A stretch of 64,000 nt of DNA, taken from the NCBI RefSeq assembly GCF_001971585.1, contig NZ_CP019323.1:858053-922052 (forward strand), given 5' to 3'. Below the pieces are notes generated by a model that worked only from the letters and a program-made list of their open reading frames with translations, did no database searches and was not told the origin of the DNA. This document shows positions 16,163 to 51,892 of this stretch, piece after piece. Positions within the stretch are counted from its first letter, which is position 1. Every line of letters begins with the position of its first letter. The position numbers and the translations under genes were made by a program. Source of the DNA: Companilactobacillus allii (lineage in GTDB: Bacteria; Bacillota; Bacilli; Lactobacillales; Lactobacillaceae).

Positions 16163-16181
16163 GTGAACGAAGTATACCAAT

Positions 16182-17196: not shown

Positions 17197-17213
17197 AAAT
17201 TATCCCCTCTATA

Positions 17214-17280
17214 AATAGTAATTATTACTATTAAATAATATCTTACCGAGAAATGTTTGTAAACAGTAATAGTTACCATT
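17214..17280. promoter_or_regulatory. Fur/Zur-type operator pair
   Basis: AATAGTAAT-T-ATTACTATT at 17214-17232 is a perfect 9-1-9 palindrome resembling Bacillus Zur boxes (ATCGTAATNATTACGAT). A weaker second copy, ACAGTAATAGTTACCAT, lies at about 17263-17279. Both are upstream of the metal-binding lipoprotein gene. The 231-base gap to the acyltransferase gene holds nothing else I can identify. Confidence 0.6.
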
Positions 17281-17427
17281 TACAAATAACGGCAATTATA
17301 AATTGAATATAAGAAATTCATATTTTAACCTTAGTTAATCATCAAGACCCTCTACCTACTGGGATGCTATAACTTATATATGCTTTAACAAAGCGAATAA
17401 ATGTAATTAGTTAACAGAGGTGAGCTC

Positions 17428-26755: not shown

Positions 26756-26757
26756 AA

Positions 26758-31183: not shown

Positions 31184-31666
31184 ATGTTTGGATTTTTAAA
31201 AAATCATCATAATAATAATGAATTACTATCAGTTAGTGATGGTAAAATTGTAAACTTGTCAGATGTTAATGATCCTGTATTTAATACGGGAATAATGGGA
31301 ATCGGTTATGGGATAGTTCCAACTGATGGAACTGTTTATGCTCCAGTATCTGGTAAAATTTCGATGATTGCAGATACAAAACATGGTTTAGGAATTACAT
31401 CTCATGATGATCTTGAAATTTTAGTACACATGGGTATAGATACCGTTGAATTGAAGGGGAAACCTTTTGATATCTTAGTTAAAATTGGAGATGAAGTAGA
31501 AGCTGGACAAAAAATTGCTTTAATGAACCTTGATGATATTAAAAAAAGTGGGAAAGATATAACAACTATGGTTGTTATTACAAATAGTTCAGACAAGGGA
31601 TTATCAGTGAGTGTTAAATCAGGCCAAAGAAGCAATGGAGAATTGGCAGCAACTATCAAATTATAA
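31184..31666 (+). CDS. PTS EIIA component, glucose type (Crr-like)
   Basis: 160 residues, cytosolic, duplicated hybrid motif. The two active-site His residues are visible: His67 in KHGLGI and the phosphorylated His82 in ILVHMGIDTVEL. VYAPVSGKI and DEVEAGQKI are standard. It relays phosphate from HPr to the EIIB domain of the adjacent EIICB. The ATG abuts the HAD stop codon, so translation is coupled. Confidence 0.95.
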   Translation: MFGFLKNHHNNNELLSVSDGKIVNLSDVNDPVFNTGIMGIGYGIVPTDGTVYAPVSGKISMIADTKHGLGITSHDDLEILVHMGIDTVELKGKPFDILVKIGDEVEAGQKIALMNLDDIKKSGKDITTMVVITNSSDKGLSVSVKSGQRSNGELAATIKL

Positions 31667-31671
31667 AAAAT

Positions 31672-31719
31672 AAAGCTATTTCAAAATGAAATCAATACAT
31701 TTTGAAATAGCTTTTTATT
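31672..31719. terminator. Bidirectional terminator, EIIA and lacI-type genes
   Basis: AAAGCTATTTCAAAATG and its exact complement form a 17-bp stem around a 9-base loop, with A and T tracts on either side. It serves the two convergent genes and overlaps the lacI-type stop codon. Confidence 0.9.
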
Positions 31720-32704
31720 TTAATTTTGCCGGAATTATTAATTTTGAGGGGATTTTTTTTGCATCATCGTCATTTAGTAGGTCCATCATAACTTCAGCGG
31801 AACTTGCTCCCATTAAAAATGGATTCTGCTCAATTAATTCAGCTTTAGGTTCTATAGCACGTGCCAAGTCAGTGTCAGAAAATCCGGTAGCAGTGACATT
31901 CATATCATCAATATACCCATCAGTCATTAGGCCAGGAATAAATTCTAATAACCAGCGTTCCTTAATAGCAAAAATCAGTGTTTTTTCATCTGATTTTTTT
32001 ATTAAAGACACAATTTCTTTATGAATGTCTTTGTGATTATGAGATTTTTCAGATATTTCAATTACGTCTACATTATTAGCAACCGATTTGATACCTTGAT
32101 ATCTTTCACGACGAGTGGAGGCTATGTTGATTTCTGAACTTAAAATAATTACATGTTTATATCCTTTAGTTTGGAATTTCAACATAGCGTTTCGTGCGGC
32201 CTCATAATTGTTTGTTATTACTTGTGGCCAGGGAGATAGTTCGATTTCGCGGTCAACAATGACTATTGGGATCTCCCGTCTTATTTCATTTTCTATTAAG
32301 CTCATGTCACTAGTTAAAGGTTGAAATATTAAACCATCAAAACTTTGACTATTAACGGAGTCCATTAATTGAATTTCTCTTTTTTGATTGGTATCCGTAT
32401 CAAAGAGAACACCGATATATCCGGTACTTTCAAGAATAGAACTAATGCCCTTGAATAATTCAGTGGAAAAATAGTCATCAATATTAGCAACTACCACAGC
32501 AATCATTTTACTTGATTTTGTAACCATTTGTCTTGCGGCAGAATTAGGTACGTAATTTAATTTATCTATGGCATCTTTAACTCTTTTTGCAGTTTCTTCA
32601 GACATGCGTGACAGGTCGTTATTTAAAAATCGAGAGACTGTAGCAATTGATACTTGAGATAAGGCAGCTACATCTTTCATATTTGCACTTTGTTTCTTCT
32701 TCAT
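31715..32704 (-). CDS. LacI-family repressor, probably KdgR-like
   Basis: 329 residues: LacI helix-turn-helix (NMKDVAALSQVSIATVSRFL, about 8-28) with hinge LNYVPNSAARQM, then a periplasmic-binding-like effector domain (about 60-325). In Bacillus the kdgRKAT genes for 2-keto-3-deoxygluconate use are controlled by a LacI-type KdgR; here the divergent operon carries KDG kinase, KDPG aldolase and a permease, so the same role is likely. Two identical 14-base operator candidates lie in the divergent intergenic region. Confidence 0.88.
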   Translation of the reverse strand: MKKKQSANMKDVAALSQVSIATVSRFLNNDLSRMSEETAKRVKDAIDKLNYVPNSAARQMVTKSSKMIAVVVANIDDYFSTELFKGISSILESTGYIGVLFDTDTNQKREIQLMDSVNSQSFDGLIFQPLTSDMSLIENEIRREIPIVIVDREIELSPWPQVITNNYEAARNAMLKFQTKGYKHVIILSSEINIASTRRERYQGIKSVANNVDVIEISEKSHNHKDIHKEIVSLIKKSDEKTLIFAIKERWLLEFIPGLMTDGYIDDMNVTATGFSDTDLARAIEPKAELIEQNPFLMGASSAEVMMDLLNDDDAKKIPSKLIIPAKLK

Positions 32705-32955: not shown

Positions 32956-33210
32956 ATGTCAGAGAGAACACAGATCGATTCAGAAAAATTTGCATTGAAC
33001 TTTGCTAGCTCTAATTATGAGAAGGGGCTCAATAAGAAAGAATTAATTAAGGAATCAAAGGATTATTTAATTAGTTATCTAACCGCATATTATTTGGCAC
33101 AAGATTTTAATAATGCTGAAAAGAAGAGTTTTGATAATGATGGAATAAAGTTTCAGGATTTAAGTTTTGAGGAGTTAAAAAATAGGGTACGTGATTTAAA
33201 TAAATATTAA
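32956..33210 (+). CDS. Small acidic/basic mixed-charge protein, unknown
   Basis: 84 residues, no signal peptide, Cys or membrane segment; rich in Lys, Glu, Asp and Asn and predicted largely helical (KKELIKESKDYLISYLTAYYLAQDF; FEELKNRVRDLNKY). GGAGATGAGCAT gives a ribosome binding site before the ATG. It is the first gene of the LacI-controlled operon and lies 14 bases before the second isomerase gene. I do not recognise the family. A small adaptor or enzyme subunit is possible but unproven. Confidence 0.7.
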   Translation: MSERTQIDSEKFALNFASSNYEKGLNKKELIKESKDYLISYLTAYYLAQDFNNAEKKSFDNDGIKFQDLSFEELKNRVRDLNKY

Positions 33211-33224
33211 TGAGGTGTAACAAA

Positions 33225-33974
33225 ATGACTTTAATTTTAAATACATGGATTTTTGAAAAAGATGTTAAAAAGGGTGCTAGTCAAGTTGATTTGGTAGATC
33301 GTGTTGCTAATCTTGGAGTAGATGGCATTGAAGTACGTCGTGAATATTTCAAGGATTTGGATAAAGAATTGCCTGAAACAGCTAAAAAGGCTAAGGAACG
33401 TAATCTAATTGTTAACTATAGTGTTCCGGATGTTATTTTTGAAGATGATGGTTCATTAAATCCAATGTTACAAACATATTTTGAAGAAGGTAAGATTTTA
33501 GGACTTAAGAAAATTAAATTCAATATTGGTAATTACAGTAAATTTACTGGCGATTTAAAAGAAGCATTAAGTCAATTTCCAATCGATAAAATTGAGATGA
33601 ATGTCGAAAATGATCAAACACAGGTATCAGGTACGGTTGTAGCATTAACTAAATTCTTGTCAGCAGCACATGAAGCTGGCTTGCCAGAAATTGGATATGT
33701 TTATGATTTAGGAAATTGGGCATTTACACATGGTGATGCAATTGAAAGTGCTAAAGCACTGGCACCATATACGCATTATATTCACTTGAAGAACACTATA
33801 GATAATCAAGGTGAATTATCAACTTCTGATAATTTGAATGTTGGTATCTATGACTGGAAGAATATTCTTACTTATCTACCAAAGGATGTTTATTTTGCAC
33901 TTGAATATCCAATGGATACTGACGAACAAATCAAAGAACAAATTGAATTGTTTCAAAAAGAGGTAGGTGCATAG
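33225..33974 (+). CDS. Sugar phosphate isomerase/epimerase-like TIM barrel, paralogue 2
   Basis: 249 residues from the ATG at 33225, which has GAGGTG 9 bases upstream and matches the start of the paralogue at 26009. Most conserved blocks are shared with it (EVRREYFKD, YSVPDVIFED, KIKFNIG, DKIEMNVENDQTQ, YVYDLGNWAF, LEYP.DTDEQIK). As at the first locus it is linked to a KDG kinase, though here the permease gene lies between. Its reaction is unknown; it presumably acts just before or beside KDG formation. Confidence 0.8.
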   Translation: MTLILNTWIFEKDVKKGASQVDLVDRVANLGVDGIEVRREYFKDLDKELPETAKKAKERNLIVNYSVPDVIFEDDGSLNPMLQTYFEEGKILGLKKIKFNIGNYSKFTGDLKEALSQFPIDKIEMNVENDQTQVSGTVVALTKFLSAAHEAGLPEIGYVYDLGNWAFTHGDAIESAKALAPYTHYIHLKNTIDNQGELSTSDNLNVGIYDWKNILTYLPKDVYFALEYPMDTDEQIKEQIELFQKEVGA

Positions 33975-33977
33975 TTT

Positions 33978-35270
33978 ATGAGTTCTACAATAATTGCAAT
34001 ATTATTATTAATTACATTTGCCGCCTTTATTTTTTACATATTAAAGGGCGGAAACTTGATGGTTGGATTTTTCGTAATGGCCATTTTGTGGGCATTAATT
34101 GGTATGGTTCCATTTGATACAGCTATTCAAAAAGTATTTGCAGAACCGGCTCTTAATTATGGACCAACTATTATCTACATTGTATTTGGTTCTTGGTTTG
34201 GACGTGTTTTAGTTGAAAGTGGTATTGCTCCGGCAATATCTGAACAGACTAATAAGGTCGGTAAGAAGAAACCATTAATAGCCGGAATTTTAGTTATCAT
34301 TGTTACAGCTTTTATTTTTGTTAGTGCATATGGTGTTGGATCCGTAATAGCTATTGGTGTTATTCTTTTACCAATTCTTTTATCTATTGGTGTACCAAGA
34401 GATCTAGCATTATCAGTATTTGCTTTATCAATTGGAGCTCCAATGTATATTAACGTTGTTTTATATAATCAAATTAAGGCTTTCTTCCCCAAAGCACAAT
34501 ATGGTGGTTCATATCTTGTCTTTGGTGTTATAGCAGCACTTGTTCAACTTGCTGCAGTTATTATTTTGTTGATTTTAAATCGCAAAAAGATTGATTCTTC
34601 TCAAGCAGAGAAAAATTTGGAAATTATTGGTGCAAGTTCAGATAATGTTGAAGATGGTAATAAAGTTCCTAAAATTGCTTTCATTATCCCTATTATTCCA
34701 GTTGCAATGAATATGATATTCAAATGGGATGCAATTCCAGCTTTAACAGTTTCAACATTACTAGCTATGTTATTAACTGGAAAAATGAAAAATTATAAGG
34801 AATTTGTCAAGTTTCTTAACGAAACAGTTCAAAAATCAATTAGTGATATTTCCGGATTGATTATGTTCTTAATGGCATTAACAATGTTTAGTGGAGCTGC
34901 TTCATTAAATGCTGCACGATTCCGTCCAGTATTTGCTGCAATTTTACCACATGATCATTTAATATTAGCAGTTGCTTTAGGTGTTTTAGCACCACTAGCA
35001 TTGTTCCGTGGACCACTTCACGTTTGGGGTGCCGGAGCTGCCACTGCTGCTGTTTTATCGGGTACAGGACTGTTCAATGATGCATTTTTACTTCCATTAT
35101 TATATGTACCAACATTGATGGCTGTTTCTACAGATATTACCCAATCATGGAATATTTGGGGACTAGATTATATGAAAGTTCAATCAAAGAGTTTCTTGAA
35201 ATATGGTGTACCTGTTATGTGGATAGTCTCAATTATTAATGAAGTTTTAGTTTATTATTTCTTTGGATAA
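33978..35270 (+). CDS. GntP-like sugar-acid permease
   Basis: 430 residues with about 12 hydrophobic segments of the gluconate/ion-transporter superfamily pattern: hairpin near TIIYIVFGSWFGRVLVESG, VSAYGVGSVIAIGVILLPILLSIG, and the second-half equivalent LIMFLMALTMFSGAASLNAARF with APLALFRGPLHVWGAG. Members import gluconate, 2-keto-3-deoxygluconate, citrate or related anions with protons or Na+. Placed among KDG enzymes, it is probably the importer for the LacI-type operon. It starts three bases after the isomerase stop. Confidence 0.82.
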   Translation: MSSTIIAILLLITFAAFIFYILKGGNLMVGFFVMAILWALIGMVPFDTAIQKVFAEPALNYGPTIIYIVFGSWFGRVLVESGIAPAISEQTNKVGKKKPLIAGILVIIVTAFIFVSAYGVGSVIAIGVILLPILLSIGVPRDLALSVFALSIGAPMYINVVLYNQIKAFFPKAQYGGSYLVFGVIAALVQLAAVIILLILNRKKIDSSQAEKNLEIIGASSDNVEDGNKVPKIAFIIPIIPVAMNMIFKWDAIPALTVSTLLAMLLTGKMKNYKEFVKFLNETVQKSISDISGLIMFLMALTMFSGAASLNAARFRPVFAAILPHDHLILAVALGVLAPLALFRGPLHVWGAGAATAAVLSGTGLFNDAFLLPLLYVPTLMAVSTDITQSWNIWGLDYMKVQSKSFLKYGVPVMWIVSIINEVLVYYFFG

Positions 35271-35307
35271 ATCAAAAATATATTTATAAATTTAAAGGAG
35301 TTTTACT

Positions 35308-36267
35308 ATGAGTGAAGTTATTACAATCGGTGAACCATTAGTTACTTTTGCATCAAAAGATCCAGACGTTTCACTAGTAGATGCCATTAATTTTCATAAA
35401 ATTATGGGTGGAGCAGAATTAAATGTTGCTATTGGTGTACGACGTTTAGGACATTCAGTAGAATATATTTCTCAAGTTGGAGCAGATCCATTTGGAGACT
35501 ATATTATTAAAACTGTTTTAGGACACAAAGTTGGAACTAAATATATTTCAAAAGACCCCAATAATTTTACTGGTCATCAATTAAAACAATTAGTTACAAA
35601 AGGTGACCCAGATACATTCAATTATCGTAAAGGATCAGCTGCATCACATTTGACAAGTGATGTCATTAATAAAGTTAATTTAGACGATGTCAAAATTGCT
35701 CATATGTCAGGTATTTTCCCAGCAATTTCAGATACTGCAGAAGAAACATTCAGAACTTTATTAAAGAGAATTGTCGAAAAGAATATTTTAGTTACTTTTG
35801 ATCCTAATTTGAGACCATCATTATGGAGTAGCAAAGAAAAAATGATTAGTACTATTAATGAATTAGCTGCTTCAGCAGATATTGTTTTACCAGGTGTTGA
35901 AGAAGGTAAAATTTTGATGGGTTCTGATGATCCAGAAAAGATTGCTGACTTTTATCTTAAAGGTGAACGTACAAAGACGGTTGTCGTCAAAATAGGTGCC
36001 GAAGGTGCATATGTTAAGACAAAAGATGGTGATAGTTATACAGTTAAAGGGTTCAAAGTCGACAAAGTTGTAGACACAGTTGGTGCCGGAGATGGATTTG
36101 CATTAGGAGTTATTACAGCACTACTTGAAGGTCAACCAATGAAATCTGCAGTTCTTCGTGGAAATGCAGTTGGCGCTTTACAAGTTCAGACTTTGGGTGA
36201 TAATGATGGATATCCAGATAAAGATGGATTGAAAGAATTTTATTCAAAAGAAGGAGTTCAAGAATAA
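35308..36267 (+). CDS. kdgK: PfkB-family sugar kinase, 2-dehydro-3-deoxygluconokinase, paralogue 2
   Basis: 319 residues, the same length as the kinase at 26758 and very similar along its whole length (ITIGEPLVTF, GGAELNVAIGVRRLG, DPNLRPSLWSS, DTVGAGDGFALGVI). It makes KDPG from 2-keto-3-deoxygluconate; the KDPG aldolase three genes downstream completes the route to pyruvate and glyceraldehyde-3-phosphate. AAAGGAG precedes the ATG. Why two kinases are kept is unclear; separate regulators (FadR type and LacI type) suggest different inducers. Confidence 0.9.
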   Translation: MSEVITIGEPLVTFASKDPDVSLVDAINFHKIMGGAELNVAIGVRRLGHSVEYISQVGADPFGDYIIKTVLGHKVGTKYISKDPNNFTGHQLKQLVTKGDPDTFNYRKGSAASHLTSDVINKVNLDDVKIAHMSGIFPAISDTAEETFRTLLKRIVEKNILVTFDPNLRPSLWSSKEKMISTINELAASADIVLPGVEEGKILMGSDDPEKIADFYLKGERTKTVVVKIGAEGAYVKTKDGDSYTVKGFKVDKVVDTVGAGDGFALGVITALLEGQPMKSAVLRGNAVGALQVQTLGDNDGYPDKDGLKEFYSKEGVQE

Positions 36268-36269: not shown

Positions 36270-36893
36270 ATGAAGCTTCAAGTGGCCATTGACAGAGTAA
36301 CTTTAGATGATGCGGTCAAATTAACGCATGAATTGGATGGAGTAGTTGATATTATTGAATTAGGTACTTCCTTAATTAAGGACTATGGTTTGTTGGCCCT
36401 TAAGGATGCTCCGTTTAATATACATAATTCAAGAGTTTTGTATGATTTAAAGACAAATGATGAGGGTGCCTATGAATTTGAAAAGGGATTTGAATCAAAC
36501 GCCGATATATTAACTGTAATGGCTGGATCGTCCTTAGATACAATCAAACAGGTATATGATGTAACTGAAAAATATAATAAAGAAATGTTGATTGATTTAT
36601 TAGAAGTAGATAATAATAAAATCAAAGATATTACTAGCTTTGATAATGCCATTTATGGGCTACATCACTCAAAGGATTCTAAAGATTCTTTTGATGCAGT
36701 AGATACTTTAGATAAATTTAAGAAGAGTTTCCCAGAGGTTAAAAAAATTGCAGTGGCTGGTGGAATCGACTTGAAACAAGCTAAAGCTATTTCTGCTCAA
36801 GGAATTGCTAATACGATTATTGTTGGTGGTAAAATAGTTAAGACAGATAATCCGGTAGAATCTGCTAAACAATTCATGGAGGCAATAAAATGA
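36270..36893 (+). CDS. hxlA: 3-Hexulose-6-phosphate synthase (HPS) family enzyme
   Basis: 207 residues of the OMP decarboxylase-like barrel. MKLQVAIDR and VDIIELGTSL agree with HPS proteins of the ribulose monophosphate pathway, and YDLKTNDEG is the catalytic Asp/Lys/Asp segment (DxKTxDxG); IAVAGGI binds the phosphate. HPS condenses formaldehyde with ribulose-5-phosphate, or runs in reverse to make ribulose-5-phosphate. The related 3-keto-L-gulonate-6-phosphate decarboxylase is an alternative, but the directly following isomerase gene favours HPS. The next gene overlaps by 4 bases (ATGA). Confidence 0.82.
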   Translation: MKLQVAIDRVTLDDAVKLTHELDGVVDIIELGTSLIKDYGLLALKDAPFNIHNSRVLYDLKTNDEGAYEFEKGFESNADILTVMAGSSLDTIKQVYDVTEKYNKEMLIDLLEVDNNKIKDITSFDNAIYGLHHSKDSKDSFDAVDTLDKFKKSFPEVKKIAVAGGIDLKQAKAISAQGIANTIIVGGKIVKTDNPVESAKQFMEAIK

Positions 36894-37432
36894 CATTAAT
36901 CAGTCAAATTATGCAAGAAGTCAACGAAGTTATGAATATGGTTGATGAAGATCAAATAGATAGTGCTGAAAAATTAATTCAAAAGGATAAACGTATTTTT
37001 GTTCTTGGTGCAGGTCGCTCAGGATTAATGGCAAAGGGATTTGCAATGAGATTAATGCATATCGGATATACTGTATATGTTATAGGTGAAACAATAACAC
37101 CTTCAGTACAATCAGGTGATGTATTAGTATCAGTTTCTGGTTCTGGTAAAACATCGAGCATCTTGGAATTAACTCAAAAGGCAAAAGAAGATGGCGTCGC
37201 AATTGTTGCACTGACAAGTAATGCTGATTCACCACTAGGTCAATTGGGAGATTCAACAATTGTTGTTCCTGGTGCTACTAAAGGTGGAGACGGTGTTAAG
37301 TCTATTCAATTGTTAAGTACATTATTTGATCAAAGTGTTCATATTACTTTGGATACACTTTGCCTAAAATTAAGTAGACGTGACCATACTTCGAATAGTT
37401 CAGCAAAATCTGCACATAGTAACATGGAATAA
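36890..37432 (+). CDS. hxlB: 6-Phospho-3-hexuloisomerase (PHI), SIS domain
   Basis: 180 residues, a single SIS domain. VLGAGRSGLMAKGFAMRL, then GETITPSVQSGDVLVSVSGSG, are the sugar-phosphate-binding segments typical of PHI, and the C-terminal helix with LDTLCLKL also fits. The enzyme interconverts 3-hexulose-6-phosphate and fructose-6-phosphate. It overlaps the HPS gene by 4 bases, the usual HPS-PHI pairing. The tail after about residue 165 (HTSNSSAKSAHSNME) is low-complexity. Confidence 0.87.
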   Translation: MTLISQIMQEVNEVMNMVDEDQIDSAEKLIQKDKRIFVLGAGRSGLMAKGFAMRLMHIGYTVYVIGETITPSVQSGDVLVSVSGSGKTSSILELTQKAKEDGVAIVALTSNADSPLGQLGDSTIVVPGATKGGDGVKSIQLLSTLFDQSVHITLDTLCLKLSRRDHTSNSSAKSAHSNME

Positions 37433-38114: not shown

Positions 38115-38128
38115 TAGATGAATTAATG

Positions 38129-38162
38129 AGAGTGTTTCGTTACTTGAGACACTCTTTTTTTT
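38129..38162 (+). terminator. Terminator of the LacI-controlled operon
   Basis: AGAGTGTTTC / GAGACACTCT stem (one G-U pair), 7-base loop and a run of Ts. Confidence 0.9.
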
Positions 38163-38188
38163 GTGGATTAAAATATAAAATAATTGTA

Positions 38189-38217
38189 GGTAAGCGTTTA
38201 CATTATTACGTTATAAT
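38189..38217 (+). promoter_or_regulatory. Promoter with cre-like site for the Dga-like operon
   Basis: GGTAAGCGTTTACA at 38189-38202 matches the cre consensus except for its first base. A perfect -10 TATAAT lies at 38212-38217. No good -35 exists; the correct position falls inside the cre-like site. Confidence 0.6.
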
Positions 38218-38255
38218 GTTATTATCTATTTGTAAATAAACGAGGGGGACTTGAA

Positions 38256-39380
38256 ATGATTGACTTATATGTGAAGAATGGCAAAACAATTTCTGGTAGT
38301 CCCGTTGATGTATTAATTGATCAAGGAAAAATTATTGATATTCAATCACATATTGACGGCGATGTTATTGCAAAAAAAGTTTTAAACTTGGAATCAAAAT
38401 ATTATCTGAGTTCTGGATGGATTGATGACCACGTTCATTGTTACGAAAAATTAACATTATACTATGACAAACCAGATTTAGATGGTGTTGATGCTGGAGT
38501 TACAACAATTGTTGATGCAGGCTCTACAGGTGCTGATAATTTAGCTGATTTTTATGAACTAACTAAAAAAGTAAAAACAAATGTTTATGCAATGTGTAAT
38601 ATTTCTAAAACAGGGATTATTGCACAAGATGAGTTAGGACACATGGACCGTATTCAGAATAATTTAGTTAAAAATATGATTGATAAGTATCCAGAATTTG
38701 TAGTTGGCATTAAAGCCAGGATGAGTAAGTCAGTTGTTGCTGGAAGTGGAATCCATCCCTTAATAAGAGCTAAGAAAATCCAAAAACTGAATAATAATAT
38801 TCCATTGATGGTTCACATTGGAACCAATCCTCCAGAGCTAAGTGACATTATGAATCTCTTGAATCCAGGAGATATCATCACGCATTGCTATAACGGTAAA
38901 CCAAATGGAATTATGAATTTGAATCTACATGAAATCAAACAATTTGCGATTGAGTCATATAATAGAGGAATTATTTTTGATGTGGGTCATGGAACAGACA
39001 GCTTTAATTTTGAGGTTGCTAGAGTTGCCAAGAGTATCGGATTAATTCCCAAATCTATAAGTAGTGACCTATATCACAGGAATAGAGAAAATGGCCCAGT
39101 TTATAATTTGGCCACGTGTCTAGATAAAATGCTTCATCTTGGTTACACAATGGAAGAAATTATACCGATGATTACAATTAATCCGGCTAATAATTTCAAT
39201 CTTAAGAATAAAGGATTTTTAAAAAAAGGATTCGATGGTGATTTAACAATTTTTAGTGTAGAGAATAGGGAAAAAGAATTAACAGACTCAAATGGCAACA
39301 AAGAAATTGCAAACAAAGTTGTAGTTCCACATTATGCTATCGTCTCAGGAAATGTTTATGAAACAAAAGGGGAATTCTAA
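38256..39380 (+). CDS. Amidohydrolase/deacetylase-family metallohydrolase
   Basis: 374 residues of the amidohydrolase superfamily, near dihydroorotase/enamidase- and D-aminoacylase-like members. The metal-binding HVHCYE follows a beta-sandwich start (GWIDDHVHC), IKARMSKS may give the carbamylated Lys, MVHIGT and ITHCYNG give the later His ligands, and SSDLYHRN the catalytic Asp. It hydrolyses a C-N bond; beside a DgaE-type ammonia lyase it may remove an acyl group or open a ring so that an amino sugar acid is released. It starts the eight-gene operon. Substrate unproven. Confidence 0.85.
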   Translation: MIDLYVKNGKTISGSPVDVLIDQGKIIDIQSHIDGDVIAKKVLNLESKYYLSSGWIDDHVHCYEKLTLYYDKPDLDGVDAGVTTIVDAGSTGADNLADFYELTKKVKTNVYAMCNISKTGIIAQDELGHMDRIQNNLVKNMIDKYPEFVVGIKARMSKSVVAGSGIHPLIRAKKIQKLNNNIPLMVHIGTNPPELSDIMNLLNPGDIITHCYNGKPNGIMNLNLHEIKQFAIESYNRGIIFDVGHGTDSFNFEVARVAKSIGLIPKSISSDLYHRNRENGPVYNLATCLDKMLHLGYTMEEIIPMITINPANNFNLKNKGFLKKGFDGDLTIFSVENREKELTDSNGNKEIANKVVVPHYAIVSGNVYETKGEF

Positions 39381-40486
39381 TGGAAAATATCTATGATAAA
39401 TATGATTTGAAACAAGTAGTTAATGCCAGTGGAAAAATGACGATTTTAGGAGTTTCTAAAGTTTCAGATGATGTCTTGGAAGCACAAAAATTTGGTGGAC
39501 AGAATTTCTTTGAAATAAGTGACTTAGTTCTAAAAACTGGGCAACACTTGGCAAAAGTTATTGGATCGGAGGATGGAGTTGTTCTTGCCTCGGCTTCTGC
39601 AGCAATTGCACAGTCAGTGGCGGCAATCATTGGTAAAGGTAGTTTACATCATGTATATCACCCATTCGATGAGAGATATACAAATAGGGAAATCATTATT
39701 CCAAAGGGACAAAACGTTGATTATGGAACACCTGAAGAAGTAATGATTGAACTAGGTGGTGGAAAAGTAGTTGAAGCTGGTTACGCCAATATGTGTAGTA
39801 AAGAACATATTGAAATGATGATTACAGACAAGACGGCAGCAATACTTTATGTTAAAAGTCATCACGCTGTTCAAAAAAGTATGTTGAGTGTTGAAGAGGC
39901 AATTGAGGTGGCCCACAAACATAATTTGCCATTAATACTTGATGCTGCGGCTGAGGAAAATCTTAAAAAGTACATAAATATGAATGCTGATGTTGTTATA
40001 TATAGTGGTGCAAAAGCGTTCTCAGGACCATCATCCTGTCTCACACTAGGCAAAAAGCCTTATATTGATTGGATAAGATTACAATCTAAGGGTATTGGCC
40101 GAGCAATGAAAATAGGTAAAGATAATATTCTTGGCCTTACAAAGGCTATTGAGGATTACTTAAAGTTCGGTCCTGAAAATGGTGATTCAATGAAAGAAAG
40201 ATTGACACCTTTTGTTAAGGAATTGAATAGCATTAAAGGAATTGATGCAAAAGTTGTTCAGGACGCTGCTGGTCGTGATATTTATAGAGCTAGTGTGACA
40301 GTCTCCGATAATTCATCTATTGATGCTATGGAATTAATTGATGAATTAAAAAAGGATAGCCCGGCAATTTATACTAGAGAATATCGTGCAAATATGGGAA
40401 TCATCGAATTTGATATTCGTGCAGTACATGATACAGAAATGAAAATGATAGTTGGTAAAATCAAACAAATAATGAAGGCGGTGTGA
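39380..40486 (+). CDS. DgaE-type PLP-dependent ammonia lyase (D-glucosaminate-6-phosphate ammonia lyase-like)
   Basis: 368 residues, fold-type I PLP enzyme of the SelA-like branch. LNPOSITION is clear from VVNASGKMTILG at the N-terminus, the Asp in LPLILDAAAEE and the PLP Lys212 in YSGAKAFSGPSS. In Salmonella DgaE converts D-glucosaminate-6-phosphate to 2-keto-3-deoxygluconate-6-phosphate and ammonia. The partner aldolase (DgaF type) is the last gene of this operon, supporting the same chemistry. Start overlaps the preceding stop by one base. The substrate's phosphorylation would need a PTS-like or kinase step that is not obvious here. Confidence 0.85.
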   Translation: MENIYDKYDLKQVVNASGKMTILGVSKVSDDVLEAQKFGGQNFFEISDLVLKTGQHLAKVIGSEDGVVLASASAAIAQSVAAIIGKGSLHHVYHPFDERYTNREIIIPKGQNVDYGTPEEVMIELGGGKVVEAGYANMCSKEHIEMMITDKTAAILYVKSHHAVQKSMLSVEEAIEVAHKHNLPLILDAAAEENLKKYINMNADVVIYSGAKAFSGPSSCLTLGKKPYIDWIRLQSKGIGRAMKIGKDNILGLTKAIEDYLKFGPENGDSMKERLTPFVKELNSIKGIDAKVVQDAAGRDIYRASVTVSDNSSIDAMELIDELKKDSPAIYTREYRANMGIIEFDIRAVHDTEMKMIVGKIKQIMKAV

Positions 40487-40491
40487 CATCT

Positions 40492-40830
40492 ATGAATACT
40501 ATTCAATTAAATACTGCTGCTGAAAAGATAATTCAAGACAGTATTAATCCTAAGAAAACTAGAGAAATTCTTGAGTTTACATTAAATCAAATGAAAACAA
40601 TTAACTCTATTCCTGATGAAACACAGACTGAAGTCTTAGCAAATCATGTAGCAGAAATGGTTGAAAGATCAGAGGATAATAATCAACTAGATGATGTGGA
40701 TGTATCGGTATTTGATGGCTTACCAAATGATAGTGTTGAATTGGCAGGAAGAGTTATTGATGAAATTGGTAATTTAAAAGATCAAGAGAAATATATATTA
40801 GCAGTGCATTTTGAAGTTGCACGTAAATAA
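40492..40830 (+). CDS. Stand-alone PRD-domain protein (EF_0829 family)
   Basis: 112 residues from the ATG at 40492. It consists of one PTS regulation domain without a DNA- or RNA-binding domain. Both conserved His positions of PRDs are present: His52 in LANHVAEMVER and His106 in ILAVHFEVA. PRDs are phosphorylated by PTS proteins. I recall an Enterococcus faecalis family (EF_0829) with the same neighbours, annotated only as a PRD protein. It may couple the adjacent SFCGS/DUF4310-4312 proteins to PTS phosphorylation; that is inference. Confidence 0.82.
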   Translation: MNTIQLNTAAEKIIQDSINPKKTREILEFTLNQMKTINSIPDETQTEVLANHVAEMVERSEDNNQLDDVDVSVFDGLPNDSVELAGRVIDEIGNLKDQEKYILAVHFEVARK

Positions 40831-40843
40831 GGAGGAAACAAAG

Positions 40844-41197
40844 ATGGTTAAAATTGTTATTGCAGACAGAATGGGTAAAGGTCAAAAAGTTGCTAAGGGC
40901 GTAGAAAATGCCGGAGGAGAAGTTTATGTTGTTCCTGGTATGGGAGCAGATATGCGCTTAGGAGACGAAATGAAAAAGCGTAATGCGGATATTGGTATTT
41001 CGTTTTGTGGAAGTGGTGGCGCAGGAGCAATTACTGCGAAGAACAAATATGGATATTCAGAACGCCATAGTATGCGATCGGTTCAAGAAGGAATAACAGC
41101 AATTGAAGATGGCATTCAGGCACTAGGCTTTGGATTTATGGATAAAGAAGAATTAGGTACCAAATTAGTTGAAACATATAACCGTGTTCATTCGTAG
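40844..41197 (+). CDS. Glycine-rich SFCGS-family protein (EF_0830 family)
   Basis: 117 residues from the ATG at 40844 (GGAGG 9 bases upstream); the frame's earlier start would lack a ribosome binding site. Named for the motif SFCGSGGAGA, seen here with Cys55, followed by TAKNKYGYSERHSMR. Cytosolic, alpha/beta by appearance, with an N-terminal strand IVIADRMGKG. The family is found only in this cassette and has no assigned function. The single Cys in a Gly/Ser loop invites comparison with PTS EIIB phospho-cysteine loops, but in EIIB that loop is at the N-terminus, so this is speculative. Confidence 0.88.
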   Translation: MVKIVIADRMGKGQKVAKGVENAGGEVYVVPGMGADMRLGDEMKKRNADIGISFCGSGGAGAITAKNKYGYSERHSMRSVQEGITAIEDGIQALGFGFMDKEELGTKLVETYNRVHS

Positions 41198-41214
41198 AAA
41201 TTGAGGATAATAAA

Positions 41215-41583
41215 ATGGATAACTCTCAAAAAATAACTAATGAAATAATTCAAGTATCTGGAATGGGCCAAGACAAGCAGGAAGCGGTAGCAGATGGTCT
41301 ATCTAAAATATCTAAAATCGTTAGAAAGAAAAATGAAATTACAGTACAAATCACGCCACTTTCTATAGAGATTGATAAAGCAGAGTGTAAAGAATATACA
41401 GAGCGTTTTCTTTTTATTTTTCTACCCAGGAAGAGAAGTATTTACAATGTTTCAATGAGTATAAAGATAGAAATCAAGTACATGGATTTATCAGAAATAG
41501 ACTTCACTGAGAAACAAATAAAAGATCCCAATGGTGTTAGGTTACCAGGACTGAATTCATTGAGAAGTAGTAAGGGGAGTTAG
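41215..41583 (+). CDS. DUF4312 family protein (EF_0831 family)
   Basis: 122 residues, cytosolic, no Cys in a clear active site apart from DKAECKEYTERF. The segment LFIFLPRKRSIYNVSMSIKIEIKYMDLSEI looks like beta strands, flanked by helices; the N-terminus (SGMGQDKQEAVADGLSKI) is helix-like. It always accompanies SFCGS, DUF4311 and DUF4310 genes as far as I know and has no known role. Gaps of 17 and 2 bases on its two sides mark one transcript. Confidence 0.85.
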   Translation: MDNSQKITNEIIQVSGMGQDKQEAVADGLSKISKIVRKKNEITVQITPLSIEIDKAECKEYTERFLFIFLPRKRSIYNVSMSIKIEIKYMDLSEIDFTEKQIKDPNGVRLPGLNSLRSSKGS

Positions 41584-41585
41584 AC

Positions 41586-42365
41586 ATGACAATACTTGTC
41601 ATTTTATTGAAATCAATTTTAATTGGTGGACTAGTTGGATTTGCGGCAGGAATGGGAGCCGCCAGAATGTTTAATGCACCAACGGTACAAGCACTTGGAG
41701 CCTTTAGAACTTTGGGTGAAATGAACGCGTGTGAAGGTGATCCAGCATCTCATTTTTCTTTTGGATTAGGTTTTTTCTTTAATGCTTGGGCATCAACAGT
41801 TGGTGCGGGTGCATTTACACAAGATGTTACTCATCGTGTAATACCAAACTGGGCTGCATCGGTCTTATTATTAAAAGATAAAAAAGTTGAAAATACAGTT
41901 CATAATCCTAAGAAGATGGCAATTGCCGGTGCCATTATTGGTATTATCGTAGTTTCCTTCTTAAATACGACCGCTTCAGCTATTCCTAAGTCACTTCAAG
42001 TTACTGCTGTAAAGGTTCTTGTTCCAGCTGCAGAGTTACTTATTAATATTGTGATGCCTATCATATTTTGGTTATCTGCAATTGACGCTGGTAGACGTTC
42101 AGGACTATGGGCAACAATTTTCGGTGGTCTCTCAGCAATGATTATGGGAAATGCAGTTCCAGGAGTTGTTTTAGGTATTCTAATCGGTAAAGGTGTTGAT
42201 GAACTTGGCTGGGTACGTATTACTAAAGTTATGTTTGGAGCGGTTATTGTACTGTTTGTTTTAAGTGCATTCTTTAGAGGATTTGATATTCAGATGATTG
42301 AAAGTTTCAAGCTTCAGGTTCCAAGTTTTATAACTAATATGCATAATGTATTCAATATCAAGTAG
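41586..42365 (+). CDS. DUF4311 family membrane protein (EF_0832 family)
   Basis: 259 residues, about six or seven hydrophobic segments with many Gly and Ala. Conserved-looking polar parts within or near the membrane are GAARMFNAPTVQALGAFRTLGEMNACEGDPASHFSFG and SAIDAGRRSGLWATIFGG in the second half. The pattern of two short polar re-entrant-like parts and a Gly-rich membrane domain fits a transporter domain. It is encoded with DUF4310 and probably forms the membrane part of the system. Confidence 0.86.
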   Translation: MTILVILLKSILIGGLVGFAAGMGAARMFNAPTVQALGAFRTLGEMNACEGDPASHFSFGLGFFFNAWASTVGAGAFTQDVTHRVIPNWAASVLLLKDKKVENTVHNPKKMAIAGAIIGIIVVSFLNTTASAIPKSLQVTAVKVLVPAAELLINIVMPIIFWLSAIDAGRRSGLWATIFGGLSAMIMGNAVPGVVLGILIGKGVDELGWVRITKVMFGAVIVLFVLSAFFRGFDIQMIESFKLQVPSFITNMHNVFNIK

Positions 42366-42376
42366 GAGGGGAAATC

Positions 42377-43042
42377 ATGGATGAAGAAAAAACAATGGAA
42401 ATAGATAAAAAAAGTTTTTGGTATTCTGAATGGTCATTCCCAATTTTAGTCGGAATAATGTCGGCAGGGGTTTTTGCTGGTACACATATGTATTTTGTCT
42501 ATAATGTTGGAGCGTTTAATGAAGTGGCTATTGTTGCAATGTTAAAAGCTGGAATGGATGGTGGATCGTATGGTGCGGCTGCCGCATTTGGTGCAAGTTT
42601 CCTATTTGCCCGTATTCTGGAAGGTTCATTAGTGGGAATTTTAGATTTAGGTGGTTCAATTTTAACCGGTGTTGGTATTGGAATTCCTGCAATTTTATTA
42701 AGTATTGGTTGGAAGGCCCCTATCACCAATTTCACATTATCAATTACAACAGGGTTAGTTTTAGGATTAATAATTGGTGGGATTATTACTTTGGTTCGTA
42801 AATATACCATTAATCAATCAAACGCTACATTTGGAGCTGACGTTATGATGGGTGCTGGTAATTCATCGGGACGTTTTCTAGGACCATTAATTATTATCAG
42901 TGCTACTACAGCCTCGATTCCTATTGGAATTGGTTCTGTCATAGGAGCGGTTATCTTTTACTTATGGAAGAAGCCTATAGCTGGTGGAGCAATTCTGGGG
43001 GCAATGATTTTTGGAGCATTTTTCCCAGTATCATTAAAATAA
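42377..43042 (+). CDS. DUF4310 family membrane protein (EF_0833 family)
   Basis: 221 residues, about six hydrophobic segments after a polar N-terminal tail. Gly-rich helices contain MLKAGMDGGSYGAAAAFGASFLFARILEGSL and a polar loop FGADVMMGAGNSSGRFLGPL, which could line a substrate path. It follows DUF4311 by 11 bases with AGGAGGGG as ribosome binding site. The pair DUF4311/DUF4310 has the size and polarity of a split carrier, roughly like two-subunit PTS EIIC/EIID or EIIC-type proteins, but I see no sequence proof of that. Confidence 0.86.
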   Translation: MDEEKTMEIDKKSFWYSEWSFPILVGIMSAGVFAGTHMYFVYNVGAFNEVAIVAMLKAGMDGGSYGAAAAFGASFLFARILEGSLVGILDLGGSILTGVGIGIPAILLSIGWKAPITNFTLSITTGLVLGLIIGGIITLVRKYTINQSNATFGADVMMGAGNSSGRFLGPLIIISATTASIPIGIGSVIGAVIFYLWKKPIAGGAILGAMIFGAFFPVSLK

Positions 43043-43065
43043 TTATTTTTTGAGGGAGTTTTATT

Positions 43066-43806
43066 ATGTCAAACATACCTAATTTTTATAAGGATCGTGT
43101 TGCATTGAATGTTTTGGCTGGATCAGTTCAAAATGCTAGTGAATGCTATGAAGCCGCTGAACATCACATTGTGCTTGGGGTTCTATCGAAGAACTATGGT
43201 AATGATGAATTAGCTATTGAAGATATGAAATTGTATCAAGCAGAAACTGATAATGCTCTTTCAGTTGGCTTGGGTGCTGGTGATCCAAACCAAAGCCAAA
43301 TGGTAAGCAGAATTTCAGCAAAATTACAACCTCAACATATTAATCAAGTATTTACTGGTGTTGGAACAAGTAGAGCACTGCTAGGCCAACAGGATACATT
43401 TATTAATGGTCTGGTTTCACCTACGGGTAAAGTTGGACTTGTAAATATTGCCACTGGTCCATTGAGTAGCAAACAACCCACCGCTGAAGTTCCTGTTGAG
43501 ACTGCCATAGCTTTATTAAAAGATATGGGAGGTAGTTCAATTAAGTTTTTCCCAATGAATGGTTTGAATCATATTGATGAATTCAAAGCAGTTGCTAAAG
43601 CTTGTTCTGACAATGATTTCTATCTTGAACCTACTGGTGGTTTGAATCTTGAGAATTTTGAAGAAATATTTCAGATTGCTGTAGATGCTGGTGTGAAGAA
43701 AATTATTCCACATGTTTATAGTTCAATTATTGATAAGAGGACAGGTTACACGCGTCCAGAAGATGTAAAGTCGTTGTTTAAAATTGTTAAAAAAGTATTA
43801 GATTAA
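43066..43806 (+). CDS. DgaF-type 2-dehydro-3-deoxy-phosphogluconate aldolase (EF_0839 family)
   Basis: 246 residues of the KDGP aldolase family that is separate from Eda. Conserved parts are RVALNVLAGS, the NQSQMVSRIS segment, the phosphate-binding TGPLSSKQPTAEVP and IKFFPMNGL with the Schiff-base Lys, then EPTGGLNLENF. In Salmonella DgaF cleaves 2-keto-3-deoxygluconate-6-phosphate to pyruvate and glyceraldehyde-3-phosphate after DgaE. It closes the operon, just before a strong terminator. Confidence 0.88.
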   Translation: MSNIPNFYKDRVALNVLAGSVQNASECYEAAEHHIVLGVLSKNYGNDELAIEDMKLYQAETDNALSVGLGAGDPNQSQMVSRISAKLQPQHINQVFTGVGTSRALLGQQDTFINGLVSPTGKVGLVNIATGPLSSKQPTAEVPVETAIALLKDMGGSSIKFFPMNGLNHIDEFKAVAKACSDNDFYLEPTGGLNLENFEEIFQIAVDAGVKKIIPHVYSSIIDKRTGYTRPEDVKSLFKIVKKVLD

Positions 43807-45618: not shown

Positions 45619-45688
45619 TATTGGCTGTAAACAAACATGTGAAAAATAATACATGCAAAAATAGAGAATATATTTGGAGGAATCAATC

Positions 45689-46540
45689 ATGACAAAATCA
45701 CATCCAATCACAATCAGTTCGTGGACATTAGGAGACAAGTGTAGTTTTGAAGATCGTGTAAAAACAGCTAGCCAGGCTGGCTACGATGGAATTGGCCTTC
45801 GTGCGGAAACTTACATCGATGCGGTAAATGAGGGACTTTCAGATGATGATATTCTGGCAATTTTAGATAAATATGGAATCAAATGTACAGAGGTTGAATA
45901 CATCGTCCAGTGGTGTGAGGAACCAAGATCATACGAACAAAAATATAAGGAACAAATGTGTTTCCATATGTGTGAATTATTCGGTGTAAAACATATCAAC
46001 ACTGGTCTTATGGAGTCATATTCAGTTGATTATTCAGCTAAGAAGTTACAAGAATTAGCAAGTAGAGCTGGCAAGTGGATCATAGCACTAGAGCCAATGC
46101 CTTACAGTGGTCTACCAAATTTGGACAAAACTTGGAAAATCATGCAAAAGGCAGACTGTGACAACGTCATGATGCTTCTTGATATGTGGCACTGGGTAAG
46201 AGCGGGTCAATCTTATGATTTGTTAACTAAAGAACAAGCCAAGAAGGTTATTTCGATTCAAATTGACGATGCTTACACACGTCCTTATGCAGAATCAATT
46301 CTAAGAGATGAATCGATGCACGACAGATTGGCACCTGGAATGGGTGAGATGGATACCGCTGGATTCGTTAAGATGATCAAAGATGCTGGAGTGGATCCTA
46401 AGGTTATCGGTGTGGAAGTTATTTCAGACAATTATCTTGATAAGGGAATAGATTATACGGCTGATTATACATACAAAGGGACAATCAAAGTTTTGAAAGA
46501 AGCATGGCCGGAGATTCTAGAAGACAAAGTTAGGGAGTAA
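45689..46540 (+). CDS. TIM-barrel enzyme, probable 3-dehydroshikimate dehydratase-like, copy 1
   Basis: 283 residues from the ATG at 45689 (TTTGGAGG upstream). It belongs to the xylose isomerase-like barrel superfamily, which includes sugar isomerases and the QuiC/AsbF-type 3-dehydroshikimate dehydratases. Candidate metal ligands are Glu in IALEPMPYSG, Asp and His in LLDMWHW, Gln/Asp in SIQIDDAY and Glu in GVEVIS. Context (two shikimate dehydrogenases, carriers) favours action on dehydroshikimate, giving protocatechuate; an isomerase or epimerase on the same ring is the alternative. A nearly identical copy lies at 49212. Confidence 0.72.
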   Translation: MTKSHPITISSWTLGDKCSFEDRVKTASQAGYDGIGLRAETYIDAVNEGLSDDDILAILDKYGIKCTEVEYIVQWCEEPRSYEQKYKEQMCFHMCELFGVKHINTGLMESYSVDYSAKKLQELASRAGKWIIALEPMPYSGLPNLDKTWKIMQKADCDNVMMLLDMWHWVRAGQSYDLLTKEQAKKVISIQIDDAYTRPYAESILRDESMHDRLAPGMGEMDTAGFVKMIKDAGVDPKVIGVEVISDNYLDKGIDYTADYTYKGTIKVLKEAWPEILEDKVRE

Positions 46541-49118: not shown

Positions 49119-49211
49119 TTAACACGTGACAGAGACTAAATTGTAATTGTAAAGTTTTTCACGTGAAGGAATTAACAACTAAATATAACAATTAATTTGG
49201 AGGAATCAATC

Positions 49212-50063
49212 ATGACAAAATCACATCCTATTACAATCAGTTCTTGGACATTAGGAGACAAATGTAGTTTTGAAGATCGTGTAAAGGCAGCCAGTCAAGC
49301 TGGTTACGATGGAATTGGTCTTCGTGCTGAGACTTATGTTGATGCAGTTAACGAGGGACTTTCAGATGATGATATTCTAAATATTCTTGATAAATATGGA
49401 ATCAAATGTACAGAGGTTGAATACATCGTCCAGTGGTGTGAAGAGCCCCGATCATACGAACAAAAATATAAGGAACAAATGTGTTTCCATATGTGTGAAT
49501 TATTCGGTGTAAAACATATCAACACAGGTCTGATGGAGTCATATTCAGTTGATTACTCAGCTAAGAAGTTACAAGAATTGGCAAGTAGAGCTGGCAAGTG
49601 GATCATTGCTCTAGAGCCAATGCCTTACAGTGGCCTACCAAACTTGGATAAGACATGGAAAATCATGCAAAAAGCAGACTGTGACAACGTTATGATGCTT
49701 CTTGATATGTGGCACTGGGTAAGAGCTGGACAATCTTATGATTTATTAACTAAAGAACAAGCTAAAAAAGTTATTTCAATTCAAATTGATGATGCCTACA
49801 CACGTCCTTATGCAGAATCAATTCTAAGAGATGAATCAATGCACGATAGATTAGCTCCAGGAATGGGCGAGATGGATACTGCTGGATTCGTTAAGATGAT
49901 CAAAGATGCTGGAGTGGATCCTAAGGTTATCGGTGTGGAAGTTATTTCAGATAATTATCTTGAGAAGGGAATAGATTATACGGCTGATTATACATACAAA
50001 GGAACAATCAAAGTTTTAAAAGAGGCATGGCCTGAAATTTTAAAAGAAGAAGTTAAAGCTTAA
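49212..50063 (+). CDS. TIM-barrel enzyme, probable 3-dehydroshikimate dehydratase-like, copy 2
   Basis: 283 residues from the ATG at 49212. It differs from the copy at 45689 at only a few residues (for example TYVDA for TYIDA, ILNIL for ILAIL, NYLEKG for NYLDKG, and the last four residues). All candidate metal ligands are the same. Long blocks are identical even at silent positions while others carry clustered silent changes, which looks like duplication followed by gene conversion. It has its own promoter region with a LysR box and starts the second half of the module. Confidence 0.72.
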   Translation: MTKSHPITISSWTLGDKCSFEDRVKAASQAGYDGIGLRAETYVDAVNEGLSDDDILNILDKYGIKCTEVEYIVQWCEEPRSYEQKYKEQMCFHMCELFGVKHINTGLMESYSVDYSAKKLQELASRAGKWIIALEPMPYSGLPNLDKTWKIMQKADCDNVMMLLDMWHWVRAGQSYDLLTKEQAKKVISIQIDDAYTRPYAESILRDESMHDRLAPGMGEMDTAGFVKMIKDAGVDPKVIGVEVISDNYLEKGIDYTADYTYKGTIKVLKEAWPEILKEEVKA

Positions 50064-50998: not shown

Positions 50999-51877
50999 AT
51001 GGAAAAACATATCTCAGGAACAACAGGTCTATTCACACTTCTAGGTACACCGGTGGGTCATTCAGGATCACCTGCAATGTATAACTTCAGTTTTAAAAAG
51101 CAAGGATTAGACTATGCTTATATGGCATTCGATGTTAAAAAAGAACAAATGCCACAAGCAATCGATGCACTAAAACTATTCAAAGTTAGAGGATCAAACG
51201 TAACGATGCCATGCAAGAGCGTTGCTTCAACACTGGTAGATGATCTTTCACCCGCTGCAAAAATTATTGGAGCTATTAATGTTATTGTCAACAATGATGG
51301 TAAGTTAACAGGACACATTACTGATGGTATAGGATTTGTTCGTAATCTTAAGGAAAATGGCGTTGATATTAAAGGTAAGAATATTGTTGTTATTGGTGCT
51401 GGTGGTGCCGCAACGGCTATTCAAGTACAGGTAGCTTTGGATGGAGCTAAATCAATTGCAATATTTAACCAAGATGATGAATTCTTCGAAAATGCCAAAG
51501 AAACAAAATCAAAACTTAAAGATGAAACTCCAAATGTAAAAGTTGATGTTTATCCATTATCAGATAAAGGTTTATTGAAAGAAAAAATTGAAAATGCAGA
51601 TATTTTAGTTAATGCAACCATTGTAGGAATGAAACCACTTGATGTCCAATCCTTAGTTGATAAATCCATGTTGCGTTCTGATTTGATTGTTGCAGATACA
51701 GTCTATAATCCATTGAAAACAAAATTAATTGAAGATGCTGAAGAAGTTGGCGCTAAGGCAATTCCAGGTAAAGGAATGTTGCTATGGCAAGGTGCTGAAG
51801 CATATAAGCTATTCACTGGAAAAGAAATGCCAACCGATGAATATCAAGCATATGAGAAAGAACAAGCAAAAATCTGA
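50999..51877 (+). CDS. Shikimate/quinate dehydrogenase, paralogue 1
   Basis: 292 residues. The AroE/YdiB landmarks are present: GTPVGHSGSPAMYN (substrate carboxylate Ser residues), NVTMPCK with the catalytic Lys, ITDGIGF with the catalytic Asp (but Ile in place of the usual Asn), VIGAGGAATAIQ for the nucleotide, and GMLLWQGAEAYKLFTG with the conserved Gln. It interconverts 3-dehydroshikimate and shikimate (or dehydroquinate and quinate). The Tyr in PAMYN, where biosynthetic AroE has His, and the tandem arrangement suggest a catabolic enzyme. Confidence 0.9.
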   Translation: MEKHISGTTGLFTLLGTPVGHSGSPAMYNFSFKKQGLDYAYMAFDVKKEQMPQAIDALKLFKVRGSNVTMPCKSVASTLVDDLSPAAKIIGAINVIVNNDGKLTGHITDGIGFVRNLKENGVDIKGKNIVVIGAGGAATAIQVQVALDGAKSIAIFNQDDEFFENAKETKSKLKDETPNVKVDVYPLSDKGLLKEKIENADILVNATIVGMKPLDVQSLVDKSMLRSDLIVADTVYNPLKTKLIEDAEEVGAKAIPGKGMLLWQGAEAYKLFTGKEMPTDEYQAYEKEQAKI

Positions 51878-51892
51878 GAGGGTGCGTTAATT

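Follow-up and report, generated by a model that had tools for sequence, protein, structure and literature searches.

A conserved five-gene module with a stand-alone PRD and a predicted RpiB-fold protein as a candidate substrate-supply unit in Companilactobacillus allii

The window analysed here, a stretch of 64,000 nucleotides from Companilactobacillus allii (NZ_CP019323.1, positions 858,053 to 922,052), carries a single operon of eight genes, all on the + strand, at 38256-43806. The operon opens with an amidohydrolase/deacetylase-family metallohydrolase (38256..39380; EF_0837 family, solved relative 2ics) and a DgaE-family pyridoxal phosphate (PLP) ammonia lyase (39380..40486), and it closes with a DgaF-type KDGP aldolase (43066..43806; solved relatives 3lm7 and 3nzr). 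Between these enzymes lie the five genes that are the subject of this work, which we call the module (40492-43042). They encode a stand-alone PRD domain (40492..40830; EF_0829 family, solved relative 3nuf), an SFCGS protein (40844..41197), DUF4312 (41215..41583), in which no hydrophobic segment was found, and two membrane proteins with several hydrophobic segments each, DUF4311 (41586..42365) and DUF4310 (42377..43042), both putative permease subunits. The intergenic distances run from -1 to 23 bases, not from 0 to 33 bases as given in a preliminary description of this DNA, whose eight family assignments were all borne out. Seven of the eight proteins score above the curated NCBIfam cut-offs (TIGR03583, TIGR01437, TIGR03582, TIGR03577, TIGR03580, TIGR03579 and TIGR03581); DUF4312 falls under that of TIGR03578 (88.3 against 89.65) and passes that of Pfam PF14189 (80.4 against 27). 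The description had also found no recognisable EIIA, EIIB, EIIC or EIID component of the phosphotransferase system (PTS) among the eight genes, in agreement with our Pfam search, in which no model of these families matched any of the eight proteins at E ≤ 1, DUF4311 and DUF4310 against EIIC and EIID included. The nearest named relatives are Companilactobacillus species, with up to 94% identity for DUF4311 among the matches listed.

The module is conserved as a unit across a wide range of bacteria. A scan of relatives with one genome per species provided 80 loci, the best-scoring of at least 491 confirmed relatives and leaning towards close kin, which span the Lactobacillales, other Bacilli, the Enterobacterales, Chromobacterium and Aliivibrio. 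At a BLAST threshold of E 1e-3, DUF4311 and DUF4310 are present in all 80, SFCGS and DUF4312 in 78 each, the PRD in 77, the amidohydrolase in 76, DgaE in 75 and DgaF in 71. All five genes occur together in 76 loci, and in 75 of these they are contiguous in the order PRD-SFCGS-DUF4312-DUF4311-DUF4310; the grouping is not due to chance. The placement of the enzymes, on the other hand, varies: they flank the core on either side in Bacillus-type loci and in the window with its near relatives, lie upstream of it in three Lactococcus loci, and follow it in most Enterococcus and Gram-negative loci. DgaE is absent from five loci; contig ends truncate two of these (L050, L053), and the other three (L019, L020, L039) have ample flanks. 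In G244, the genome of L020, the core stands alone at L172, and an amidohydrolase-DgaE-DgaF-PfkB set lies elsewhere beside an EIIC (L162). This core without enzymes, together with the varying enzyme position, therefore marks the core as an independent unit, and the genome-neighbourhood survey that had been proposed for the orphan families thus returns a conserved set separable from the enzymes.

Alignments A2-A6 of the module proteins were made with near-redundancy and length filters (SFCGS 39/78, DUF4312 63/78, DUF4311 45/80, DUF4310 47/80, PRD 71/77); after filtering, 56 DUF4312 sequences and 47 PRD sequences plus that of the window were aligned. The residue counts given below omit short sequences and comprise 72 DgaE proteins (from 75 loci) and 77 PRDs (from 77 loci), the window included in both. 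The DUF4311 of L007 (genome G274; 1486-2205) is interrupted by one in-frame TAG and was excluded; the other module genes were found at this locus, where the stand-alone PRD lies in one frame with SFCGS and an internal start codon would allow two products.

The predicted fold of SFCGS is that of the RpiB/LacAB proteins, with a match over 113 of the 117 residues of the model. Its Cys55 is invariant in 79 of 79 sequences, including that of the window, and aligns with the catalytic cysteine of RpiB, which we take to be Cys66 of the E. coli enzyme. In EIIB proteins the phosphorylated cysteine directly follows the first strand, whereas Cys55 is placed after the third strand (residues 50-54) of the SFCGS model. 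Profile comparison points the same way, with E 8e-6 against RpiB and E 0.034 against EIIB (UlaB, GatB, ChbB), the latter confined to a motif of 17 columns. Assignment of SFCGS as an EIIB was consequently rejected: the CGxG motif is alike, but fold, cysteine position and profile scores favour RpiB, and the earlier suggestion that SFCGS works in a PTS-like way finds no backing in an EIIB-like fold. The list of fold matches contains no EIIB row, an absence that excludes nothing. By sequence the single protein scores 12.5 bits with Pfam PF02502 (RpiB/LacAB), under the curated cut-off of 24.7, and a sequence search returned no solved structure for SFCGS.

The stand-alone PRD bears on the link of the module to the PTS. 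An alignment of a diverse set retains only six invariant columns, two of which are the histidines H52 and H106; both are kept in 77 of 77 sequences. H52 aligns with H101 and with H208 of BglG, the latter being, as we assume, the known phosphorylation site. The window's PRD does not reach the cut-off of the Pfam PRD model (16.6 against 23), in contrast to YhfY from the same genome, which passes it. Stand-alone PRDs are otherwise known as regulator domains. All 17 genomes of the phylum sample that carry DUF4311 (7) or YhfT (12) over the cut-offs, two of them both, have Enzyme I (PF05524), compared with 73 of the 199 genomes of a phylum sample in which carriers are themselves counted. HPr and Enzyme I were each detected in 45 of the 46 genome handles searched, among which G244 and G414 are evidently one genome. 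A few genomes have the PTS genes next to the operon: at L170, HPr and Enzyme I lie on the same strand, 248 bases past the operon's last gene, which encodes a HAD-type hydrolase; at L055 they sit directly upstream of the regulator and the module and may simply be the general ptsHI; and at L175 an HPr gene overlaps the end of yhfW. The PTS link that had been put forward for the module is thus upheld by the PRD histidines, Enzyme I co-occurrence and adjoining genes.

Many module loci also contain a larger PRD regulator of about 620 residues, with a helix-turn-helix, a PRD and an EIIB-like stretch (E 0.0054, below the cut-off). It is present in 72 of the 80 loci by clustering and in 59 by a single BLAST query; the window and its close relatives L013-L017 lack it, and in L013 a GntR/UTRA gene takes its place. 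At L019 one reading frame covers both the stand-alone PRD and the PRD transcription regulator.

Parts of the module recur in yhf operons. Profile comparison by hhalign shows SFCGS to be a full-length homologue of YhfU (DUF2620), with probability 94.8 and E 4.9e-8 over 117 columns, where reversed controls give E 0.06 and 0.19; the single SFCGS sequence scores 13.8 with Pfam DUF2620, under the cut-off of 25. The stand-alone PRDs of the module and of yhf operons are likewise homologous (probability 96.6, E 5e-10; a comparison made without reversed control), and in the latter the first histidine is invariant in 12 of 12 sequences but the second is not. The genome of the window itself possesses a yhf-type operon, YhfZ-PRD-YhfU-YhfT-Php-YhfS-YhfX-YhfW (L100, L171), and YhfY, YhfU and YhfT occur in all nine yhf-type regions from the phylum sample (L171, L173-L180). 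Twelve YhfT loci lie over the cut-off and L105 lies below it; A8 omits L102 (near L101) and L104 (stop in the match), A7 omits L102 and A9 omits L101. In the class of G411, a search of 185 genomes found no YhfT. The idea that the DUF4311 match in the E. coli control genome is YhfT was rejected, as four YhfT proteins, that of E. coli included, match no DUF4311 Pfam model. Three further weak DUF4311 matches in the phylum (L009, L010 and L011, the last sharing the locus coordinates of L010) are taken as chance-like; the translated product of L010 appears to us to be an MFS transporter. Some yhf operons contain an additional amidase-family gene (PF01425) between yhfT and php (L176 7341-8453, L180 7555-8673).

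The ammonia lyase of the operon retains the residues expected for a phosphorylated substrate. In DgaE, both active-site histidines (H161, H162), the PLP lysine (K212) and three arginines (R303, R333, R347) are invariant in 72 of 72 sequences, that of the window among them. These arginines are the equivalents of Arg-301, Arg-332 and Arg-346 of DGL, near which the 6-phosphate of the substrate lies in the authors' docked model (PMC9529869); the equivalent of Arg-226, near the carboxylate, is lysine in 58 and arginine in 11 of the 72. As far as this docked model goes, the expectation that the enzymes need a phosphorylated substrate is therefore supported. The invariant phosphate pocket and the few PfkB neighbours described below would fit a module that delivers phosphorylated cargo, although a kinase encoded elsewhere in the genome may supply the phosphate instead.

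DUF4312 has no column with histidine or cysteine in more than half of 78 sequences and is therefore unlikely to be a phosphocarrier, which speaks against the PTS-like handling of phosphate once suggested for it. Its best match among solved structures, to tandem RecA chains (E 1e-5 over 20 residues, no stretch passing alone), is taken as noise. Nothing under E 0.46 was found among solved structures for DUF4310, and nothing for YhfT. DUF4311, DUF4310 and YhfT were compared with one another using larger profiles, global mode, internal-repeat self-comparison and reversed controls, and no signal rose above the controls.

PTS genes do occur beside the module or the enzymes in other genomes. For DgaF the phylum sample comprised 329 genomes, of which 10 have DgaF at 11 loci. 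Five of these loci have the module (the window, G274, G055, G253 and G159); three have a PTS EIIC or EIIBC and a MupG-type protein (L161, a second copy in the window's genome G000; L162 in G244; L164 in G066), and the queries used recognised no PTS at the other three (L163, L165, L166). Mannose-type PTS genes (ManX/ManY/ManZ) were found neither among the open reading frames of the window at E 1e-4 nor in the 14-18 kb around the ten other DgaF loci. Of the 80 loci with the module, 17 contain a cellobiose-type EIIC, located between DUF4310 and the amidohydrolase in 13, upstream in L026, L032 and L041, and downstream in L071, and four (L017, L019, L024, L027) have mannose-type PTS genes in their flanks; in L024, from Lacticaseibacillus chiayiensis, these lie at 15177-17845, shortly downstream of DgaF. 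The module and a PTS can therefore coexist, and the module is not always the sole candidate importer. Given these loci, and a second enzyme set beside an EIIC in the window's own genome, the earlier statement that the orphan set replaces the PTS is too simple.

MupG, too, is present in 17 of the 80 loci. The inserts between DUF4310 and the amidohydrolase consist of a ChbC-type EIIC and a MupG-type 6-phospho-N-acetylmuramidase, mostly with a small protein of 86-103 residues, at L018, L023, L025, L035, L037, L042, L044, L045, L047-L049, L051 and L052 (about 11.5-14.4 kb; twelve Enterococcus, one Lactococcus), near which the queries used found no EIIA or EIIB. They hint at a muramic-acid-like or glycosidic substrate. 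The second amidohydrolase-DgaE-DgaF set of the window's genome (G000:C1:312-319 kb; L161 7072-13654) is accompanied by EIIC, MupG and PfkB, and its DgaE copy may be broken, with the match split over two reading-frame pieces.

Taken together, these data lead us to propose, with a probability of about one in two, that the module is a PTS-linked substrate-supply unit, most likely an importer, of an undescribed type that is not built from known PTS subunits. That the module performs transport we consider probable, and we have somewhat greater trust in the phosphorylation of its PRD by HPr; that the cargo already leaves the module phosphorylated is doubtful. The pathway substrate is probably an amino-sugar acid. 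In the proposed scheme, DUF4311 and DUF4310 would form the membrane path, and SFCGS, a cytosolic protein with DUF4312 as its partner, would act at the inner side of the membrane on the sugar acid that enters or on its phosphate, while phosphorylation of the conserved PRD histidines by HPr would gate or energise the unit. A phosphorylated N-acyl amino-sugar acid would then be deacylated by the amidohydrolase and deaminated by DgaE, and cleavage by DgaF would yield pyruvate and glyceraldehyde-3-phosphate. The same combination of a PRD, an RpiB-fold protein and a membrane protein would serve another pathway in yhf operons.

Several observations weigh against this proposal. By sequence, none of the membrane components is similar to a known transporter, and the model of DUF4311, only moderately confident (predicted local distance difference test 73.7), had no structural match in the fold search. 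DUF4311, DUF4310 and YhfT show no detectable relationship to one another, in a test that is weak at profile Neff values of 1.8-2.4. The co-occurrence with Enzyme I is confounded by the kinship of the carriers and is therefore support, not proof. G405, a metagenome-assembled genome of unknown completeness, has no match for HPr or Enzyme I, although one missing stretch would explain both. To these are added the EIIC and mannose-type PTS genes at module loci, and kinases that could supply the phosphate by another route: PfkB lies near DgaE or DgaF in 14 of the 75 module loci with DgaE, and PfkB or FGGY accompanies all six module-free DgaF loci of the phylum sample.

The kinases suggest an alternative in which the module would be a secondary, ion-coupled permease whose PTS link is regulatory only: the phosphorylated PRD would report energy status, SFCGS would be a true isomerase or epimerase, as its predicted enzyme fold and retained RpiB cysteine might indicate, and PfkB or FGGY kinases would phosphorylate the substrate later. 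Two PfkB-family kinases are encoded in the window (26758 and 35308), albeit in other operons. We regard this account as rather unlikely, as 61 of the 75 DgaE loci show no PfkB near DgaE or DgaF (by one query, and with contig ends truncating some loci), the arginines of the DgaE phosphate site are invariant, and SFCGS stops short of the C-terminal tail of RpiB. A bolder reading would make the module a second, independently evolved phosphotransferase transport system. The stand-alone PRD would play the part of EIIA, taking phosphate from HPr and handing it to Cys55 of SFCGS, the counterpart of EIIB, which would phosphorylate a sugar acid entering through DUF4311/DUF4310 as counterparts of EIIC/EIID, and YhfY-YhfU-YhfT would be a second branch, found in E. 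coli K-12. This would explain both why the phosphate pocket is kept though no PfkB kinase is seen near most operons and why Enzyme I occurs in all 17 carriers; we nonetheless hold it to be unlikely.

By analogy with BglF-BglG, the module might instead be a membrane-bound sensor, with DUF4311/DUF4310 and SFCGS sensing a sugar and altering the phosphorylation of the PRD, which would signal to the neighbouring PRD regulator. The frequency of that regulator, and the reading frame that it shares with the stand-alone PRD at L019, would suit such a role. The window and L013-L017, however, keep the whole module without it, and yhf operons hold PRD, YhfU and YhfT beside a different regulator, YhfZ, so that we find a sensor decidedly improbable. 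Least credible of all is an ordinary Dga pathway that receives its substrate through a known PTS encoded elsewhere, with the orphan proteins doing something unrelated, such as a side reaction. A glucose-type EIICB (28727-30397) and EIIA (31184-31666) do lie 7-10 kb upstream, and L164 combines the same enzymes with an EIIBC-type PTS; yet the upstream genes of the window belong to a separate operon, which is followed by a gene on the other strand (31715-32704) and a terminator-like hairpin, and the orphan set stays contiguous in all but one of 76 loci, whatever its surroundings.

A substrate-supply unit of the proposed kind would bring four families whose function is unknown, and through YhfU and YhfY also an E. 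coli K-12 orphan operon, under one PTS-linked plan. As an importer of sugar acids, the unit would be of a transporter type with no described relative among those we found; should it phosphorylate them as well, it would be a PTS made of other parts; and stand-alone PRDs would gain a role in transport. Among the open-licence PubMed Central papers that matched, no entry showed a function for SFCGS, DUF4310-4312 or DUF2620, most matches to these terms having other meanings.

Upstream of the operon, a terminator-like hairpin of 12 pairs followed by a T run (38128..38156, + strand; pattern match) ends the preceding operon; seven such hairpins were found in the region against 3.0 expected in shuffles. 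A promoter-like site, TTTACA-17-TATTAT with TG ahead of the second hexamer (38197..38225, + strand), is a consensus match only, one of three sites matching 10 of 12 positions among 19 found against 31.8 expected in shuffles. Its first hexamer is overlapped by a palindromic site resembling a CcpA-type catabolite-responsive element (cre; 38188..38203, one mismatch on either strand). The window has nine cre-like matches, this one counted on both strands, against 2.63 expected. Catabolite control of the operon is therefore likely, as far as the overlap of the two predicted sites indicates.

Elsewhere in the window, the PfkB-family kinase at 35308 gives sub-threshold matches to 5-dehydro-2-deoxygluconokinase and KDG kinase. 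A hexulose-6-phosphate-synthase-like gene (161.6 bits, under the cut-off of 200) and a 6-phospho-3-hexuloisomerase gene (over its cut-off) form a pair at 36270-37432, between a PfkB kinase and a KDPG aldolase. By eye, the regions 26009-27717 and 33210-36267 look like a duplication: each pairs a 248-254-residue protein with a PfkB kinase, the two pairs are similar, and in the second a membrane protein gene separates the partners. Two nearly identical 288-residue proteins (45674-46540, 49197-50063), again by eye, point to a recent duplication; the first is followed by what we presume to be MFS-like transporter genes, and two shikimate-dehydrogenase-like genes lie further on at 50999-52759.

The operon can be compared with several known systems. 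With the D-glucosaminate (Dga) operon of Salmonella it has the DgaE and DgaF families in common, with the catalytic histidines, PLP lysine and phosphate arginine triad of DGL kept; the Salmonella PTS, DgaABCD, is absent here, and the amidohydrolase and the five-protein module are present instead. With EIIA/EIIB/EIIC/EIID permeases the module shares the same kinds of parts, namely a domain with candidate phospho-histidines, a cysteine protein and two membrane proteins, as well as a local EIIB-like motif, but its proteins match none of the EII families in Pfam. From RpiB and LacA-LacB, whose predicted fold and cysteine position it shares, SFCGS differs in the alignment by not conserving the ring-opening histidine and the C-terminal arginine tail of RpiB. 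The TIGRFAM sets EF_0829-EF_0839 and AHA_3910-3917 contain exactly these families as conserved hypothetical proteins, under names that say nothing of a function, a fold, a PTS link or any tie to yhf. The yhf operons, finally, lack DUF4312, have one membrane protein of 430 residues without detectable similarity to DUF4311 or DUF4310, and encode different enzymes (YhfW, YhfX, Php, YhfS); in E. coli YhfY lies three genes from YhfU, and in L174 the gene order is changed. Like the module, however, the E. coli operon (yhfZ-yhfS) combines a PRD (YhfY), the predicted RpiB-fold protein YhfU and the membrane protein YhfT with a PLP-type enzyme and a hydrolase, and the window's genome has PRD, YhfU and YhfT side by side, arranged as in the SFCGS module.

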